Below, one piece after another: positions 54,282-62,362 of a stretch of DNA of 64,000 nucleotides. The translations under genes and the position numbers were made by a program. The notes under the pieces are model-generated. The model did not search any database. It was not told the DNA's origin and saw only the letters and a list, made by a program, of their open reading frames with translations. Numbering within the stretch: position 1 is the stretch's first letter; each line of letters starts with the position of its first letter. This stretch comes from Micromonospora sp. H61 (GTDB lineage Bacteria > Actinomycetota > Actinomycetes > Mycobacteriales > Micromonosporaceae), in contig NZ_JAGPXY010000001.1 of NCBI RefSeq assembly GCF_018070325.1, positions 1-64,000 on the forward strand. The letters are read 5' to 3'.

Positions 54282-55484
54282 TCACTGCCTGGAGTTGGCC
54301 GGGTGCGGTCGTTCGGGCGGTTTCCCCTTGGCGTGGACGGCGTCGGAAGCGGCGATGCCGGCGAGGACGATGACGGCGGTGACGGCCACGGCCAGCGGCG
54401 GCAAAAAGATCATGAGCGGCGACGCGCCGGCAAGCGTCAGAGCGCCGACGATCCGAGAGCGGGACACCCGGGCGAACACGGCATGTTCCAACAAGGCTCG
54501 CCCGATCAGGAAGAGCATCGGTCCGCCGAGGACAACGAGGATCCACGCCGCGTTGGTGTGCCCGAACGGATGTTCGATCACGATCTCGTATCCGACGGCA
54601 ACGGCGACGATCCCGGCCACCATGAGTACGTGCGCGAGAAAAGCCTCCCGAATGAGGTGCGCGGGCCGCGCGGCGGCTCTGATGGCTTCGGGCAACAACT
54701 GACCCGACCTGAAGACGTAGACGCGAAACAGCAGCACAGTGGTGATGAATGAAACCGCGAAGGCTGCTGCGGCTCCGCCGTGCCGGAACGACGTGTCGCT
54801 GTAGGCCGAGCCGGTCGTCAAAATCAGTTCACCGAGAGCGATGATGAAGAATTGTCGGTAGCGCTCGGACAGGTATTCGGCCAGGACGGGCCACTGCCGT
54901 TGGGTGGGGCGGGACCACGGCGCGGGATAGAACAGCAGCAGTGCCGCGCCGTCGATGGCGATCGCGAGCGTCCACAACAGGCTGCGGGCCAGGTCCGTCA
55001 CGATCGCGCCGGCGATCCACGGCACTGCCGACAGCGTGAACCAGAAGAACACCCCGGCCGCTCGGCGCTGAGCCTCGTGGCCGCGCAACATCGGGACGAT
55101 GATCAGCCCACGGATGATGTGGACGGCGACGTACGCGCCAGCGAAGGCCAGACTTCTGTCACCGAACGCGTGCGGCACCGCGACCGCCATCACCAGCGCG
55201 CCGAGCATGGCCGTGTAGACCAGCACCTGAAGTTGCGGCCGCTGCGGATCGTAGAGGTCGGTGACCCACGCCGTGACGAACCACAGCACCATGAAGGCCA
55301 GCAGCAACAGCAGCGTCTCGCCGACGTCGATGAGGACGACGCGCTGCTCGGTAAGCTCCTCGACCAGCCGCTGTGAGACCCGATTGAGGGCAAAGATGAA
55401 GACCAGGTCGAAGAAGAGTTCCAGAAGGCTCGGCCGCTGCGGTTGCCCGGGTTTTCGAAGCAGCGCTGCTGCCCTTGTCGACAT
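54282..55484 (-). CDS. ltrA: LtrA-family membrane protein
   Basis: 400 aa, about ten to twelve TM helices. LLELFFDLVFIFALNRVSQR at the N-terminus and FFIIALGELILTTGSAYSD are hallmarks of the low-temperature-requirement A family. Start is the ATG at 55484, where family homology begins; upstream in-frame codons are not convincing. Function in actinobacteria is unknown. Confidence 0.9.
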   Translation of the reverse strand: MSTRAAALLRKPGQPQRPSLLELFFDLVFIFALNRVSQRLVEELTEQRVVLIDVGETLLLLLAFMVLWFVTAWVTDLYDPQRPQLQVLVYTAMLGALVMAVAVPHAFGDRSLAFAGAYVAVHIIRGLIIVPMLRGHEAQRRAAGVFFWFTLSAVPWIAGAIVTDLARSLLWTLAIAIDGAALLLFYPAPWSRPTQRQWPVLAEYLSERYRQFFIIALGELILTTGSAYSDTSFRHGGAAAAFAVSFITTVLLFRVYVFRSGQLLPEAIRAAARPAHLIREAFLAHVLMVAGIVAVAVGYEIVIEHPFGHTNAAWILVVLGGPMLFLIGRALLEHAVFARVSRSRIVGALTLAGASPLMIFLPPLAVAVTAVIVLAGIAASDAVHAKGKPPERPHPANSRQ

Positions 55485-55747: not shown

Positions 55748-56833
55748 ATGCGTCTCCGATCGTTAGTCACCACGGCACTGGCCGCCGTCCTGGCCGTCGG
55801 CGCACTCGCGCCGCCGGCGCCGGCAGCGGCGGCCACCGCCGACCGCTGGGGCTTCGCGTACGTCAAGGACCCGACCGTGCCGGCCTGGACGGTGCTGGAC
55901 ACCAGCCGGCAGTGGGGTAGCTGGAAGACCGCGTTCCCGGCCGCCTGGGCCGACGGCATCAAGCTCGCGCCCGGCCGTTTCCAGGTCCGCTTCCCGCAGA
56001 TCGGTGCCAGCTCACGGGGTGTGCCGCACGTGACCCCGGTGAACCGGACCGGTCACTACTGCGAGGTGGTCCGCTGGTTCCAGTCCGGCGCCGACGAGAT
56101 CGTCGACGTGCAGTGCCACAAGCCGGGCGGTACGCGCGACGACACCCCGTTCACAGTGCTCTGGACGACCAGCTCGGGTGTGCTGCCCGCCGCTACTGCC
56201 CACGCGTACGTGCAGTGGAGCAGCGGGCTGGTGGCGCAGTCGTACAACTCCACCGGCGTCGTGAACACTGTCGGGCCGCTGGGCGTCGGGCAGTACCTGG
56301 TGCGGCTGCCCGGGGTGGGGTTGGCCGGTCTGCTCGCCGGCAACGTGCAGGTCACCGCCGTGCAGCCGAACGCCGGCCCTCGCCGCTGCAAGGTCTACTC
56401 CTGGAGTGCGGTCGGCACCGGCGTGCAGGTGTACGTCTTCTGCTACGACCAGGCAGGCGCGTTCATCAACACCGACTTCGTCCTCTCGTACCACCGTCGG
56501 CGGCCGGTGATCGGCTCCCTCGGCCCGCCCTCGTACTTCGGCTACCTGGGTACCGCCGTCGGCGGGCCGACCAACGACAACTCGGTGCTCGGCGTCGGCG
56601 CGAACACTGTGGCACCGCTGGCGCCCGCCGGCCGCTACCTGGCGACCTTCCCGCAGGTCGGCCTCAAGGAGACGCACGCCCAGGTGGTGGCGCAGGGCAC
56701 CGGTAGCAACTACTGCCACCTCACCCAACCCTGGCCGTACACCACAAACGCCGACGTCGACGTCATCTGCTTCGACAACGCCGGCGTCGTCACCCCGCAC
56801 CGCTTCCTGGCCACCTTCACCTCCCGGCTCTGA
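55748..56833 (+). CDS. Secreted triple-repeat protein of unknown function
   Basis: 361 aa. Signal peptide ends AAAA around residue 30. Three repeats of ~95-105 aa, each with G.(F/Y)...(F/L)P.(I/V)G, then a Cys, then a V-x-V-x-C-(F/Y/H) strand and a closing F...(W/Y/F) strand: GRFQVRFPQIG, GQYLVRLPGVG and GRYLATFPQVG start the cores. The paired cysteines suggest one disulfide per repeat. Start ATG with GGAGGAACAG. No family recognised. Confidence 0.8.
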   Translation: MRLRSLVTTALAAVLAVGALAPPAPAAAATADRWGFAYVKDPTVPAWTVLDTSRQWGSWKTAFPAAWADGIKLAPGRFQVRFPQIGASSRGVPHVTPVNRTGHYCEVVRWFQSGADEIVDVQCHKPGGTRDDTPFTVLWTTSSGVLPAATAHAYVQWSSGLVAQSYNSTGVVNTVGPLGVGQYLVRLPGVGLAGLLAGNVQVTAVQPNAGPRRCKVYSWSAVGTGVQVYVFCYDQAGAFINTDFVLSYHRRRPVIGSLGPPSYFGYLGTAVGGPTNDNSVLGVGANTVAPLAPAGRYLATFPQVGLKETHAQVVAQGTGSNYCHLTQPWPYTTNADVDVICFDNAGVVTPHRFLATFTSRL

Positions 56834-56879: not shown

Positions 56880-57026
56880 TCAAGGGCCAGCACTCGTGGT
56901 AAGTCCGCTGAGTCTTCGGGATCCGGCGGACCCGAGTGTCTAGAACCCGGTGCCTTGCGCAGCCCGCCTGGTTTGTTCATCGAAGCGTCGCGATGCCGAG
57001 GCCACAGTCAATTCGTGGCCGCCAGA

Positions 57027-57605
57027 TCATCGTCCTGCCAACTCAAGACACCCACGACAATCTTCCCGTTCGGACCAGCTTCGTCGCTTCAGGTCGGCCG
57101 GCTCCAACCGGGCCTGGTCGAACTCTGTGCGCACCGCCATCCGGAACTGCCAGATCGCCTCGGCGAACTCGTGGTATGCGCGGTGGTACTCCCCCGACGA
57201 GAGCGTCACGCCGGATCGGATCGCGTTCCGCACCCCGATCAACCCCTGGTAGGCCATCTCCCCGGCTTTGACGATCTCTTTGGTACCGGCGACGAGTAGA
57301 CGTTCTCGCGCGGTAAACACGTTCGACTCGTGGACAACGCGGCTGGCGGAACGGAGACCGTGTGACGGGTCCTCGCCGCTTTGGGCGATCTCCCGGAGCG
57401 CGCTGTGGGCTGTGTCGAGCGCCACGGCAAAGTCCAGGTAATAGCCGATGCGCTCCCCCTCACGGCCGCGTCGACGTTCGGCACGGTTGTGCTGTACCTC
57501 GACGCTCACCGCACTGGCGAGGGCAATAGCGGCTCCGCAGATCGCACCGACGAATGGTATCCATTCCACGTCTTCAGTCTCCGCCGACGATGTCCGGCCC
57601 ACCAT
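57027..57605 (-). CDS. TM-anchored member of a two-protein family with shared C-terminal domain
   Basis: 192 aa. One N-terminal TM helix (WIPFVGAICGAAIALASAVS) then ~150 cytoplasmic residues related to the C-terminal half of the HTH protein upstream: RERLLVAGTKEIVKAGE, VRNAIRSG, YHRAYHEFAEAIWQFRMAVR, RRSWSEREDCRGC. Both end in a CxxC. ATG with AGGAAC upstream. Unknown family and function. Confidence 0.75.
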   Translation of the reverse strand: MVGRTSSAETEDVEWIPFVGAICGAAIALASAVSVEVQHNRAERRRGREGERIGYYLDFAVALDTAHSALREIAQSGEDPSHGLRSASRVVHESNVFTARERLLVAGTKEIVKAGEMAYQGLIGVRNAIRSGVTLSSGEYHRAYHEFAEAIWQFRMAVRTEFDQARLEPADLKRRSWSEREDCRGCLELAGR

Positions 57606-57753
57606 GTGTTCCTGTCTCCGGTATGACTGGGGTCAGGAAACACCGGCGGAGGGTGTTGCCGGAATCGTGGCCGGATTACCGTGTATCCAGACGACACAGA
57701 GACCCGCCTTACTGGCCTCTCTGCGCGTCGCCCAATGCCGTCACCACCGGGTC

Positions 57754-58581
57754 TTACGCGGAGGGAAATCCCTGCTGCTCACAGTCGCGGCACCGTTCAC
57801 GGTCCGACCAGTCTCGCCGGCCGATCGCATCCGGGGTCAACGGCGACTGCCCCAGGTCGGCCCGCAAAGCCATCCGGAAGGTCCACAGCGCCTCGGCGAA
57901 CGGGTGGTAGACCTGATGGTAGGCCGCCTCCTCTAAACGCGCCCCGGTCCGGATCGCGTCCCGAACCGCGATGAGCCGCAGGAACGCCGCTTCGGCCGCG
58001 CTCACCAACGGCACGGTGCCCAGCACGAGGAGCCGCTCACGGAGCGCGTACACCCGTGCGTCATGGAGCACGTCATTGGCTGGGTCACGTCGGGCCGAGG
58101 GCGGCAGGTCGGCACGGGCGACGGCGCGCAGGGCATTGTGCGCTTCGTCGAGAGCGAGCATGAACGCGACGGCAGTGCCCGACGAAACCGGCAGCTCAGC
58201 CTCGGCGAATGGCTCGTCGGTGCGGTGCTGAGATGTCGCGACGTCGCGGCGACGCTGGCGAGGCAACCCGAGCGGCGCCTCCCGCGCGGGATCGCGTGGC
58301 TCCGTCCGTTCGGGCGGGTGCGGGTCACGCGGCTGCGTCCGCGCAAGCTTGGCCAACGCGCCGCCGGTCCCAAGCGCCTCGTCGCAACGCTCCGCCAACT
58401 GGATGTTGCCCGGTGCGCGGCCTGTCTCCACCTTGCTGAGATAGCCGCGGCTGTAGTTGACTTTTCGAGCGAGCCCGGAAAGAGACAGCCCGGCGGCCTT
58501 ACGGCGTCGGCGGAGGCACTCTCCCAGCCGTTCTACGGTGTCGTTAGGCGGTTCGAATTCCTCGTCGCGCGCGGCCATCAT
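57754..58581 (-). CDS. XRE-HTH protein with the same unknown C-terminal domain
   Basis: 275 aa from the first of two tandem ATGs (58581, 58578). XRE-type helix-turn-helix ~12-70 (LGECLRRRRKAAGLSLSGLA, KVNYSRGYLSKVETGR), a charged Pro/Arg-rich linker, and a C-terminal domain ~145-275 shared with the protein at 57027 (RERLLVLGTVPLVSAAE, VRDAIRTG, YHQVYHPFAEALWTFRMALR, RRDWSDRERCRDC). A soluble DNA-binding and a membrane-anchored paralogue side by side suggest hetero-oligomerisation through the shared domain. Confidence 0.8.
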   Translation of the reverse strand: MMAARDEEFEPPNDTVERLGECLRRRRKAAGLSLSGLARKVNYSRGYLSKVETGRAPGNIQLAERCDEALGTGGALAKLARTQPRDPHPPERTEPRDPAREAPLGLPRQRRRDVATSQHRTDEPFAEAELPVSSGTAVAFMLALDEAHNALRAVARADLPPSARRDPANDVLHDARVYALRERLLVLGTVPLVSAAEAAFLRLIAVRDAIRTGARLEEAAYHQVYHPFAEALWTFRMALRADLGQSPLTPDAIGRRDWSDRERCRDCEQQGFPSA

Positions 58582-58684
58582 GGCGCAGCGTCGCCTTGGC
58601 AGGACACATCGTAACTGTATCAAGGTCGACCTTCGTACGGCGGTGGTCCGGCGGCGGGAGGTGACGGCCGGACCACCGCCACGA

Positions 58685-59038
58685 TCAGCACACGGGCGTC
58701 GACACCTGGGCCGCGACCAGCGAGGAGTGGATGAAGCCGCCCGTCGGGGCACTCACCCTGAACCAGCGGTTGGACGCGTAGTTGGAACTCGGCGGGTAGA
58801 CCCACTGGGTATCGGTCCAGCAGACCATCGTGACGGACGTGCCGTTGCCGTAGTACCCGTTGGACGAGCACCCGGTGTTGGCGCAGCTTCGGATGTTGGC
58901 ACCTCCGGAGTTCGAACTGATGTATGGACCGGCGGCGGATGCCGGCACACTCGTCGCCGCCACGAGTGCCCCGGCCGCACCGACGATCGCGGTCATCCGC
59001 CCGAGACGGCGGCGGAAGGCAACCCTGGTTTCTGACAT
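58685..59038 (-). CDS. Secreted SH3-like peptide
   Basis: 117 aa. Signal peptide ends ASA, then a bacterial SH3-like core: GGANIRSCANTGCSSNGYYG, GTSVTMVCWTD, RWFRVSAPTGGFIHSSLV. Such domains often bind peptidoglycan. ATG; preceded by GGAGAGTGCG. 103 bp upstream of the HTH gene on the same strand. Confidence 0.85.
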   Translation of the reverse strand: MSETRVAFRRRLGRMTAIVGAAGALVAATSVPASAAGPYISSNSGGANIRSCANTGCSSNGYYGNGTSVTMVCWTDTQWVYPPSSNYASNRWFRVSAPTGGFIHSSLVAAQVSTPVC

Positions 59039-59162
59039 CGCGCACTCTCCTCTGCACTCTGGGCTGGTAGGAGGACCAGCCGACTGCCATGAGCGTCAAC
59101 CGTCCGAACCTCTTTCCGGAACGTGTTTCCTGTTGCATCCGACAGGAGGAGACAGCGCACGT

Positions 59163-60356
59163 TCATCTCCGCTGAAGCCTGGCCGCCCGGATCGCGGATC
59201 CGAGCGTCGCGACCGTCGCTGACCAGGAGAAGCGGTGGAGCAGCCGCTCGCGCAGGCGGTGGATCTCGGCGAAGGCGGTGGGCAGGTCGTCCAATACTCG
59301 CTGCACCGCCTTTGACCACGTCCGAATATCGCGGTCACGGTCGTCGGTGATGTCAACGATCAAACTGTCAGCGGAGGCGCCCAGTTGTTCCCGCAGCAAC
59401 TCCGCCAGCCCGCTCTGCGCGCTGACGAGGATCGGGGTGCCCACCGCGAGCGCCTCCCACGCCGCCAGACCGAAGCCTTCAGCCCGGGAAGGCATCAGGC
59501 ACAGCGCTGCACGCCGAAGGTCCCGGCGCACCGCCACACCGTCCTCCGAGAACGGGCGTACGTCGACTCGGCCTCGGGCCAGGTTGGTAAGGCCGACGAG
59601 CGTGGCGCGCACCTGCTCGCACTGCTCGGCTGGGGCGCCGCGAACGTACAGCAGCGGAGCCAGGCGGTCGGGCCTGTGCGGCAGGCTGGCGACAGCGCCA
59701 GCCGCGATGTCGAGGCCCTTGAGTTCTATGTCTCCGGTACGACCGAGGACCATCACATTCGCGCGTACCGGAATCCGGCGTGCCCGGTCGAGGGGGTCCG
59801 GGTCGAGACCTGGGTCGAGGCGGTGCACAGGGCGACCCCCGTAGCCGTCGTCGAGGAGGTGTGTGGCGTACCGGGCCAGACGGGGCCCCACGCCGACGAC
59901 GACGTCAGACTGTCCCGCAAGATCAACGGTGTATGCCTCGCGCGCCTCCACCCGGGCAGACGCCTCACCGCTACCCTTGTACGGTTCGATCTCAGCAGGG
60001 GCGGTGTGCACTATGTGGACCATCGCGGCGGCACCGAAGTTACGGGCATAGAGCCAGCCGATATGCCCGGTCACGCGGTCATGCCCTACAACGACGTCGG
60101 GTTGCCGTGCGACGACCTCAGCAACTGGCAGGTGGAGATCCGGACCCGCAGGCGTGCGGTCGGCGACGAACAGCCGAACGCCATGTCGGGCGGCGTCCGC
60201 GCGCTCGGCATCCGTGGCCTGCGCGACAAGGCACAGCACAGCGTCGCCGCACTCGGCGAACGCGACGGCCAGGGCTCGGTTGAGCACGGAGATGCCACCT
60301 TTTGCAGGCGACCACTCGTCGCAAACGAACAAGATGGTCAGCGGTGTCTCGGTCAT
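59163..60356 (-). CDS. GT4-type glycosyltransferase
   Basis: 397 aa from the ATG at 60356 (MTETPLTILFVCDEWSPAKGG); a GTG at 60422 would add 22 residues that look non-homologous. GT-B fold: N-terminal VCDEWSPAKGGISVLNRALA, C-terminal donor site MPSRAEGFGLAAWEALAVGTP with the E-x7-E signature. Acceptor unknown. It is divergent from the TPR protein at 60425, 68 bp apart. Confidence 0.87.
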   Translation of the reverse strand: MTETPLTILFVCDEWSPAKGGISVLNRALAVAFAECGDAVLCLVAQATDAERADAARHGVRLFVADRTPAGPDLHLPVAEVVARQPDVVVGHDRVTGHIGWLYARNFGAAAMVHIVHTAPAEIEPYKGSGEASARVEAREAYTVDLAGQSDVVVGVGPRLARYATHLLDDGYGGRPVHRLDPGLDPDPLDRARRIPVRANVMVLGRTGDIELKGLDIAAGAVASLPHRPDRLAPLLYVRGAPAEQCEQVRATLVGLTNLARGRVDVRPFSEDGVAVRRDLRRAALCLMPSRAEGFGLAAWEALAVGTPILVSAQSGLAELLREQLGASADSLIVDITDDRDRDIRTWSKAVQRVLDDLPTAFAEIHRLRERLLHRFSWSATVATLGSAIRAARLQRR

Positions 60357-60424
60357 GGCGGCAGCCGACCAGCACAAAAGAATGAATTCAACACCGATCG
60401 AATGAAGATCGTTTGGAGTCACTG

Positions 60425-62149
60425 ATGCCGGATGAGGCGGCGTGGCGGACCATGGCCACCGGGCTGGTGACCGTCCGAGACGTCATTCGCAAGGTCAACC
60501 GCGGTTGCACCCGATCGGTCGAGCGCGCGGCGCTGGCCAAGGTCGCCGACAGCGCCGCGTTCGTGGGGCTCGGCCCGTCCTCACCGAACCGCGCGAGTTG
60601 GATCGTCGGACGCATCCGAGGTTGCCTCCTCGACCTCGAACGCGCCGTCGCCGAGGCAGCCGCGGACCGGGCGATCCGCTGTTGGGCCCGATACATCGAC
60701 GAGGGCCTGACACCTGTTGAGCTGTACGGCGCGTATCCCCACCTCATCCTGAACGACGTACCCACAGACAGGGCTACTGCCCAACGTCAACGCGTGCAGA
60801 GCCTCATGTGGGCTGGCGGCGCACGGGGGGACAAGGATTCCCTCCCGGGCGTCCTGAAACTCGCCGCCGAACTACGCACCGCGCTCTCTACGGATCTACC
60901 CGACGGACCCCGAATGGACGCCACGACCTTCGGATACGAGTGGGAGCGCCTCGCTACCGCGGCACCGGATGGCCGTGACCTACTCCAGGTGCTGGCCCGG
61001 CTGGCTCCGGGCAACCCGTTCCCGAACTCGCTGCTGCGCGAGGCGGGTGACTGTTTACCCGGCCGCGCCGAGGTCGCATGCGCTTCCCCAGCCGCGCTAC
61101 GAGAGGCGTACACAGCGCTGCGGACCCGGGGCCTGCTGGACACAGATGGCGATCGCGTATCAGTGCCGGCGAATATCGCCGTCCACGTGAGAGAACAGGT
61201 GACGCCTCAGCAGGATGCCCACTGGACCGCTGCCGTGCTGCGTTTCCTCACCCATGCGCTGCGGCCCGACACCCACCACAGCGACTCATGGACGGAGTGG
61301 GAGTTCGGGTACCCCCATGTGCTGGCCGTATGCCGGGAGGCGGAGCGGCACCAGGTGCAGTTGAGTGACGTTGCCTACCTACTCGACCGTGCATCGGTGT
61401 ATGTGCGCGAGGGTGTCGAGGACCCGGACGCGGCGACCGTTCTCGCGGAGCGCGCCGTCGCGATCGCCCTGGCCGTGCAGGATCGCGAGTTGACTGGCGA
61501 CAGCTTGGGAAATCTGGCACTGGCACACCGGGCCGCCAACCGGATAGCAGATGCCGTCCGTACCTCGACGGAGTCGCTGGACCACGTCGCCGCGACGTAC
61601 GGCACCGGCTGCGAGACGTACGCCGAGAGCCTTACAGTGCATGCCAACATCCTTGCCGTGGCAGGACGCGCTGCGGACGCCGGCCGGGCTCACGAGCAGG
61701 CGGTCGGAATCCTACGGACGTTGTACGGGACATGTTCGACGGACCACATTCGTGGGCTGCTGGTCGAGGCTCTCAACGACCACGCGGGACACCTGTTTAC
61801 CAGCGGTGCGCCTACCGCTGCCGCTCGGGAGCTGCTAGATGAGGCGAACAAGCTGGTGCGACGCGGCGATTACGGCTGGACGCAGATCACGTTGAACCTC
61901 GCCCGGGCATGCCGCGCGGCCGGTGATCTGCGTGAGGCACGCGACTACCTCGAATCTCTGCGGGAATACTGCGTCAAGACCAGACTCAGTGGGTCGACCA
62001 CCCACGTGTGCACAGTGGTGGACCTGGCCGAAATCTACAGCGATCTGGGCGACCCCCGCGCCGCCGCCACGTTGCGCGAGGCACACCGCCTTGACAACGC
62101 GCTGGCAAACGCCTTGGATCGGCCGCTGCGCCACGGCCGGAGCAGGTGA
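60425..62149 (+). CDS. TPR protein resembling a STAND regulator without NTPase
   Basis: 574 aa. The N-terminal ~160 residues are helical and unassigned (VRDVIRKVNRGCTRSVERAA). Around 170-265 is a winged-helix-like segment as found after NB-ARC domains (LLREAGDCLPGR, AYTALRTRGLLDTDGDRVSV), and the C-terminal ~300 residues are tetratricopeptide-type repeats (ALAHRAANRIADAVRTSTES). No P-loop (GxxxxGK) or Walker B is visible, so this looks like a STAND relative that has lost, or never had, its NTPase. ATG with GGAG six bases upstream. Confidence 0.75.
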   Translation: MPDEAAWRTMATGLVTVRDVIRKVNRGCTRSVERAALAKVADSAAFVGLGPSSPNRASWIVGRIRGCLLDLERAVAEAAADRAIRCWARYIDEGLTPVELYGAYPHLILNDVPTDRATAQRQRVQSLMWAGGARGDKDSLPGVLKLAAELRTALSTDLPDGPRMDATTFGYEWERLATAAPDGRDLLQVLARLAPGNPFPNSLLREAGDCLPGRAEVACASPAALREAYTALRTRGLLDTDGDRVSVPANIAVHVREQVTPQQDAHWTAAVLRFLTHALRPDTHHSDSWTEWEFGYPHVLAVCREAERHQVQLSDVAYLLDRASVYVREGVEDPDAATVLAERAVAIALAVQDRELTGDSLGNLALAHRAANRIADAVRTSTESLDHVAATYGTGCETYAESLTVHANILAVAGRAADAGRAHEQAVGILRTLYGTCSTDHIRGLLVEALNDHAGHLFTSGAPTAAARELLDEANKLVRRGDYGWTQITLNLARACRAAGDLREARDYLESLREYCVKTRLSGSTTHVCTVVDLAEIYSDLGDPRAAATLREAHRLDNALANALDRPLRHGRSR

Positions 62150-62271
62150 GACACGCCAGAGCGACCCGGCGTCCGACCACCAGGTGTCCCATGACCCACA
62201 CGCCGAGCCCCTGACCAGCGCCGCCAGACCCGAGCAGCATCCCGGCGAAGTTCGTCGGGTGTCGACAGCGA

Positions 62272-62322
62272 GACGGCCCGGCGATCGTCGGCCCTCCGCG
62301 GAGGGTTGATCGCCGGGCCGTC
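62272..62322. terminator. Nested bidirectional terminator
   Basis: Perfect 15-bp outer stem GACGGCCCGGCGATC / GATCGCCGGGCCGTC, whose 21-nt loop itself contains the palindrome CCCTCCGCGGAGGG (62292-62305). Sits between convergent genes. Confidence 0.85.
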
Positions 62323-62362
62323 CCGGTGGCGAGCCGTGCGCGGCGGCCCGCCGGTCAGCCGG

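Follow-up and report, generated by a model that had tools for sequence, protein, structure and literature searches.

Two adjacent genes in the window, by which we mean the whole 64-kb stretch of DNA analyzed here, encode a membrane-anchored protein and an XRE-type regulator that carry the same domain. Judged from sequence comparison the domain is real and lies outside the family libraries searched, and the locus around it is larger than the first-pass annotation of this DNA saw; its mechanism is proposed only. We favor, at a probability of roughly 0.45, an accessory conflict module of Micromonospora with a putative role in immunity or regulated death, in which a helical adaptor would hold a regulator and an effector at the membrane until a signal arrives. 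The locus is a compact five-gene module in which the cassette varies naturally, and its adaptor-like domain, so far without a name, would link effectors of the GT4-conflict type to a transcription factor and a membrane protein. With this locus, the way in which such effectors are restrained could be tested directly in a laboratory actinomycete.

The domain shared by the membrane protein and the regulator

Both genes lie on the minus strand, where the first-pass annotation had placed two adjacent open reading frames. The membrane-anchored form (TM form; 57027 to 57605) comprises 192 aa when read from the ATG at 57605, and an alternative GTG start at 57569 fits its relatives better. Its membrane helix, approximated as the transmembrane part of the first helix from the structural model and the flank charges, is encoded at 57498 to 57557 and the shared domain at 57042 to 57446 (E 1.5e-79). 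The regulator (XRE form; 57754 to 58581, 275 aa) has a helix-turn-helix (HTH) part at 58336 to 58527 (HTH_31, PF13560, Pfam E 3.4e-14; helices 19-82 in the model) and bears the shared domain on a low-confidence linker at 57775 to 58179 (E 6.7e-78). Both domain E-values were obtained with model A2, which was built from the two window copies themselves. Residues 54-186 of the TM form and 135-267 of the XRE form are identical at 64/133 positions (48%, BLASTP E 9e-43), a likeness that at this E-value is far beyond chance. The earlier observation of the pair is confirmed. About 133 residues are common to both proteins, the three motifs that had been listed (RERLLV-x-GT, YHxxYHxFAEAxWxFRMAxR and RRxWSxRExCxxC) are found in each, and a DNA-binding domain, HTH_31, does precede one of the copies.

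The label "uncharacterised", which the domain had been given, also remains appropriate, since no family in Pfam, NCBIfam, PADLOC or PHROGs covers it. Comparison of all 49 aligned relatives with Pfam and NCBIfam yielded scattered weak matches, the best Pfam E being 0.00084 for a family matched by 4 rows. When the 49-row profile was searched against PDB sequences, no match fell below E 0.28, and Foldseek gave no match at E ≤ 0.001. The query P0001 had no match among phage records at E ≤ 1e-4 and two among plasmid records, both from Streptantibioticus cattleyicolor, which cover 68% of the query at 34% identity. Only two copies of the domain score at significant E in the window genome (264 contigs, 7.17 Mb in all), and a third site reached E 0.44. 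Both forms are under purifying selection when compared with those of M. rubida (dN 0.097 and dS 0.61 for the TM form, dN 0.136 and dS 0.42 for the XRE form).

The AlphaFold model of the TM form, taken from the GTG start, is all-helical (mean pLDDT 95.7, pTM 0.85). A long helix spans residues 4-64, its first part being the membrane span, and is followed by helices up to residue 149 and a C-terminal tail. In the model of the XRE form the HTH (about 19-82) is joined to a helical domain (132-271) by a low-confidence linker (about 83-131). Within the membrane helix one Gly is invariant across the 31 core TM rows. A basic flank follows the span in 47/47 pieces (mean 5.2 R/K in 15 residues, minimum 3), and the N-terminal flank of the same 47 pieces has a mean net charge of -0.8. 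The shared domain of the TM form should therefore lie in the cytoplasm, where the TM and XRE domains could meet.

The domain alignment contains several invariant Arg residues as well as an HxxxH and a CxxC motif. All four residues of the latter two (H141/H145 and C183/C186) are present in 36/49 rows and none in 11/49; the incomplete rows are L122 with a single His and L025, in which one Cys is missing. The rows without any of the four mostly form one remote group, which argues for few independent losses, and L103 is a case inside the core group. The joint presence or absence of both motifs suggests a putative metal site. A sensing role for the CxxC in redox or metal, raised by the first-pass annotation, gains support from this, because the CxxC co-varies with the HxxxH pair over the 49 rows.

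The trio and its effector cassette

Just upstream of the XRE form lies the gene of a small SH3-like protein (58685 to 59038, minus strand, 117 aa) with an apparent signal peptide, as judged by eye; its SH3-like annotation is sub-threshold (SH3_3, E 0.11). The gene is found upstream of the XRE form in 5/5 loci of the window's XRE clade. Seven of 160 genomes of the genus match the protein at E ≤ 1e-8, five trio genomes strongly (E ≤ 1e-42) and two weakly, and the presence of SH3-like protein, XRE form and TM form coincides (5/5/5 genomes).

The glycosyltransferase encoded beyond this trio (59163 to 60362, minus strand) belongs to the curated GT4-conflict family (PF20706, E 8.2e-120, 400.7 bits versus a gathering cut-off of 26) and is a predicted effector; the GT4 proteins of the M. 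rubida locus (L018) and of L025 also pass the gathering score of PF20706. GT4-conflict proteins are predicted to act as effectors in immune-like systems of bacteria and animals; in the text consulted they are discussed as predicted effectors of counter-invader systems, and their targets and control are predictions as well (PMC8195603). Divergently from the GT4 gene, a TPR protein of 578 aa (60413 to 62149, plus strand) is encoded in the position that TPR-CHAT proteins hold in sister loci. It matches NF040586 at E 9.5e-17, below the cut-off of that family, and has no detectable NTPase, with no AAA, NB-ARC or NACHT match at E ≤ 1. In 200 family genomes it finds distant partial matches, from residue 164 onward, in long ORFs of 4 other genomes. 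The SH3-like protein, the glycosyltransferase and the NTPase-less TPR protein had thus been described correctly as neighbors, but the first-pass annotation missed the GT4-conflict membership. By its GT4-conflict and TPR proteins the locus is of the conflict type, a predicted class that was overlooked before.

The gene order in the window is TM form, XRE form, SH3-like, GT4 and TPR protein. Locus L093 of genome G238 reads SH3-like, XRE form, GT4 (on the opposite strand), TPR-CHAT and TM form, and the M. rubida module has the order of L093. In G253 and G268 an SH3-like/XRE pair is separated by about 840 kb and about 170 kb, respectively, from a GT4/TPR-CHAT/TM set, and both sets are kept. TPR-CHAT is encoded directly upstream of the TM gene in four of the five genomes with both forms, on one strand and with a gap of 70-131 bp in 4/4 loci. 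A CHAT gene hence adjoins in four sister loci, and none was found among the window neighbors scanned. An LtrA-like membrane protein is encoded near the module in three genomes (54282 to 55484 in the window, L094:9333-10559 and L096:5827-7092; about 40% identity to the window's). The protein left of the module (55748 to 56833) has no family above cut-off and occurs in 5/41 genomes searched, its own genome included.

Comparison with M. rubida revealed identities of 80% for the TM form, 78% for the XRE form and 87% for the SH3-like protein (dN/dS about 0.16-0.32), versus only 37% for GT4. Among the GT4 proteins compared, that of L025 is closest to the window's (48%). The TPR-CHAT protein of M. 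rubida contains CHAT at E 1.7e-18; a search of the window genome with it, run without a positive control, found nothing at E ≤ 1e-5. The His of SGHG and the Cys of GCWSG or SCWSG, which we take to be the CHAT catalytic pair, are present in 4/4 TPR-CHAT proteins. At the level of sequence, a constant trio is accompanied by a differing effector cassette, with a CHAT-less TPR protein in place of TPR-CHAT. We infer that the cassette was exchanged between close trios; old paralogy of the cassettes is a possible alternative.

The 10-mer CAGGAAACAC is a candidate operator upstream of the TM gene (57634 to 57643, plus strand) and again upstream of the SH3-like gene (59123 to 59132, minus strand). An AGGAAAC block is found upstream of the SH3-like gene in 5/5 genomes and, in reverse, 65-86 bp upstream of the GTG start of the TM form in 5/5 genomes, against a background of 0.106 per kb over seven loci with these sites counted in. 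The exact 10-mer occurs at the SH3-like gene in 3/5 and at the TM gene in 2/5 genomes, and the window genome contains 7 copies (two in this locus) versus 4 for the reversed control. Since the AGGAAAC block was noticed while viewing alignments, it is suggestive only as a candidate common operator of the SH3-like and TM genes. A hairpin between the SH3-like and XRE genes (58630 to 58690, minus strand; dG -37.6 kcal/mol, z -5.4), both arms of which align in L018 and L093, is a possible attenuator. Scans of 56900 to 60700 for consensus promoters and terminators returned nothing, including no T-run terminator.

On its right side, the DNA that is not shared with relatives at this site has its edge at 62250 to 62342 (no strand assigned). 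In all six relatives compared, the peptidase gene to the right is conserved (90-97% DNA identity) and nothing of the module is found next to it; G238 and G300, which are among the six, have the module at another place in their genomes. The DNA that one relative (L180) has at the peptidase site was compared with that of the five others, and only one 2.4-kb block is shared, with L181. The peptidase boundary is possibly an integration hot spot. In G238 the module abuts a tRNA-Gly gene (L093:12789-12862) that runs into the 3' end of the TM-form ORF as called, which suggests that the module integrated next to a tRNA in that genome; the 64-kb window contains no tRNA.

Distribution of the domain and its neighborhoods

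We surveyed 354 genomes of the family, scoring the best 9 candidates per genome, so that a second copy could be missed. The domain is matched at E ≤ 1e-5 in 36 of them. Twenty-five genomes with E ≤ 1e-40 were taken as the strong set and the surroundings of all 25 were inspected, and the 11 with E between 1e-40 and 1e-5 were left outside it. Both forms are present in 5/25 genomes of the strong set (the window genome G000, G238, G253, G268 and G300), the XRE form alone in 2/25 (G146 and G309) and TM forms alone in 18/25, as counted from the best 9 candidates. In an even sample of the class 28/394 genomes match, G000 included; no XRE type was recognized there, and the match in G603 is partial.

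For tree reconstruction, 49 of the 55 domain pieces found in the loci were used (alignment A4); the near copies L112, L114 and L116, L105 as a near copy of L104, and the two pieces of the broken frame L126 were left out. The rows comprise 42 TM and 7 HTH types, some long frames having been judged without their upstream parts. The TM form of the window groups with the TM form of M. rubida and its XRE form with the XRE form of M. rubida, and adjacent TM and XRE copies are not each other's closest relatives. The TM clade and the XRE clade show the same unrooted genome order. Both window lineages occur together in 5/5 genomes carrying either, even where they lie about 840 kb (G253) and about 170 kb (G268) apart; these five genomes belong to one genus with shared ancestry and are therefore not independent trials. 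The data neither establish nor reject one clade that unites the five TM with the five XRE rows (p-AU 0.235), and support for a common origin of the 7 XRE rows is weak (63/72). The first-pass annotation had proposed that the TM and XRE proteins form a signaling pair and had pointed to their co-occurrence in other genomes as a check. Such co-occurrence does exist, in the five strong-set genomes named above, and the pairing holds for the window lineages, but it fails as a general rule given the many genomes with one form alone. Broken XRE copies in M. rubida (L018) and G309 (L098), considered on account of one reported internal stop, were dismissed; by its coordinates the stop is the end of the ORF.

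In 10/25 strong-set genomes a GT4-conflict gene lies no more than about 8 kb from the domain. This count was made with a GT4 HMM trained on three of these GT4 proteins, and PF20706 agrees with it for the five genomes of a 200-genome sample. In this sample 13 genomes contain the domain and 21 contain GT4-conflict; the 5 genomes that have both always keep them within 8 kb (hypergeometric P 0.006; probability of falling within 9 kb by chance about 0.002 per pair). The partners of GT4 beside the domain vary. Besides TPR-CHAT we found an XRE-NB-ARC-TPR protein (L025:3569-6298), divergent from a GT4-conflict gene that is 33 bp from the XRE form of the domain, and a fusion of GT4-conflict to NACHT and WD40 repeats immediately downstream of the XRE form in G309 (L098:3108-7757). 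A conserved six-gene cluster adjoins the TM form at L022:1-7416 and L030:2-7735 and encodes GT4-conflict, a serine hydrolase, a small protein, a weakly nSTAND3-like NTPase, a weakly methyltransferase-like protein and a histidine-specific-methyltransferase-like protein. In L023 the GT4 gene is divergent from its TM form. In 15/25 strong-set genomes the TM form has no GT4 nearby, and most of the remote TM relatives from other families of the class, among the matches listed, are surrounded by ordinary genes. The domain may therefore have a non-immune base function.

Several other genes were observed beside TM forms. In Micromonospora sp. KC213 the TM form is immediately adjacent to the PglZ, BrxD and BrxH genes of a BREX-type system (L021:7394-13580). 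A weakly TIR-like protein (TIR_2, E about 1e-3), a candidate partner effector, is encoded 89 bp downstream of the TM form on the same strand at L027:4333-5445 and L101:6306-7457. Near the TM form, L024 has a TPR protein that matches STAND weakly, and L028 has large proteins that are weakly STAND-like. Other TM forms have ordinary neighbors.

Possible roles of the domain

A combination of helical adaptors with GT4 effectors has been described as a grammar of conflict systems (Kaur et al., 2020, PMC7159879; follow-up in PMC8195603, both in their accessible parts). With its constant trio, its differing GT4/TPR cassette and its helical domain on two partners, the locus resembles published conflict systems with coupling adaptors, and we therefore favor a membrane adaptor. 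The shared domain would be a helical bundle, one end of which might be pinned by the HxxxH/CxxC metal site. The TM form would display it on the inner membrane face and the XRE form would carry it on a flexible linker, and binding would run through it, either of the copies themselves or of a partner they share, for example the GT4/TPR proteins. Regulator and effector would stay tethered to the membrane until a signal from the envelope or from an invader frees or activates them, and the XRE form would regulate the TM gene as well as its own operon through the AGGAAAC sites. A bolder version, in which a metal-pinned adaptor tethers the transcription regulator together with an interchangeable glycosyltransferase/protease cassette to the inner membrane and one envelope signal releases both, appears rather doubtful to us.

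Three other explanations were weighed against the membrane adaptor. In line with the first-pass annotation, the TM form might sequester the XRE regulator via the shared domain, and a signal might release it, possibly by CHAT proteolysis, and switch the module on. The common compartment of both domains predicted from the topology, the five genomes with both forms (two with unlinked genes), the position of CHAT genes immediately ahead of the TM gene in four of these and the possible common operator all speak for it. However, the 18/25 genomes with a TM form but no XRE form, the 2/25 with the reverse and the window genome, which yielded no TPR-CHAT match at E ≤ 1e-5 in the search without positive control, make it unlikely. 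About equally improbable is a role of the domain as a stand-alone detector of a small ligand or metal, built like the four-helix bundle of a chemoreceptor and equipped with an HHCC site; the two proteins would then use it separately and have no contact. Ligand-binding domains of chemoreceptors extend outside the cytoplasm, whereas our domain is predicted to be cytoplasmic. The best structural matches (VIA) are indeed four-helix domains of this kind (Z 12, rmsd 2.7, 116-118 residues), and the invariant Arg residues together with HxxxH and CxxC would suit a sensor, but the identity is 7%, a Z of 12 is within reach of generic helical bundles and Foldseek returned no match at its threshold.

The explanation to which we give the least credit is a coincidence at a hot spot, with an ordinary actinobacterial membrane protein and a regulator paralogue situated in variable islands and the conflict genes as passengers. 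It would account for the variation among the relatives compared at the site beside the module and for the unrelated neighbors of many TM forms. It is less easily reconciled with the recurrence of GT4-conflict beside the domain with different partners (TPR-CHAT, XRE-NB-ARC-TPR and the NACHT-WD40 fusion), a gene present in only 21/200 genomes, and with the close spacing of the TPR-CHAT and TM genes on one strand in 4/4 loci.

Among known systems, the effector-associated domains (EADs) are the closest comparison. As far as the available text of PMC7159879 describes them, they are small, mostly all-helical and non-enzymatic, are found on a core component and on effector or signaling enzymes, and their copies in adjacent genes are closer to each other than to others; homotypic interaction is a further trait of EADs. 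Our domain resembles them in being small, helical and non-enzymatic, in occurring twice per locus on different partners, in its conflict-type actinomycete neighborhood and in its expected coupling role; at about 135 residues, with an all-helical model and no enzyme family above its cut-off, it is somewhat large for an EAD. In contrast to these, the window copies have no fusion to a core component or effector, form separate orthologous lineages, have no Pfam match and possess the HHCC site. We do not class the domain as an EAD because two defining features, the fusion pattern and the kinship of adjacent copies, are absent. By analogy it may work like one; that the only fusion partners of the two window copies are a TM helix and an HTH, with no effector among them, argues against an EAD-like adaptor.

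The remaining likenesses are more partial, each as far as the cited text covers it. The membrane-associated EACC1 two-gene system (PMC7159879) likewise has a single TM helix with small residues, and its caspase-like protease gene has a possible counterpart in the CHAT gene of the sister loci, but EACC1 is a TM helix with short alpha+beta extensions, whereas in the TM form a large all-helical bundle follows the helix and the window neighbors scanned include no CHAT. As in the GT4-conflict systems (PMC8195603), the window GT4 passes PF20706 and STAND, TPR and CHAT partners recur nearby; the TM/XRE/SH3-like trio is absent from the part of that description available. The TPR-CHAT architecture of the sister loci recalls the type III-E CRISPR Craspase, from which the window TPR protein differs in having no CHAT (PMC9729208). 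Among titles and abstract beginnings we found no description of the trio, and its listing in the supplements of PMC7159879 or PMC8195603 is possible; the term GT4-conflict did not occur in the literature searched. Finally, the XRE-DUF397 pairs of Streptomyces (PMC10364602, PMC6262351) are another actinomycete case in which a small gene accompanies an XRE regulator. The window differs from them in that none of the 7 proteins scanned has a DUF397 match at E ≤ 1, the partner is SH3-like and lies upstream, and the C-terminal domain of the XRE protein is another. In G268 an apparent XRE-DUF397 pair, identified by eye, is located some 4 kb away from the XRE form (L097:11586-12621).
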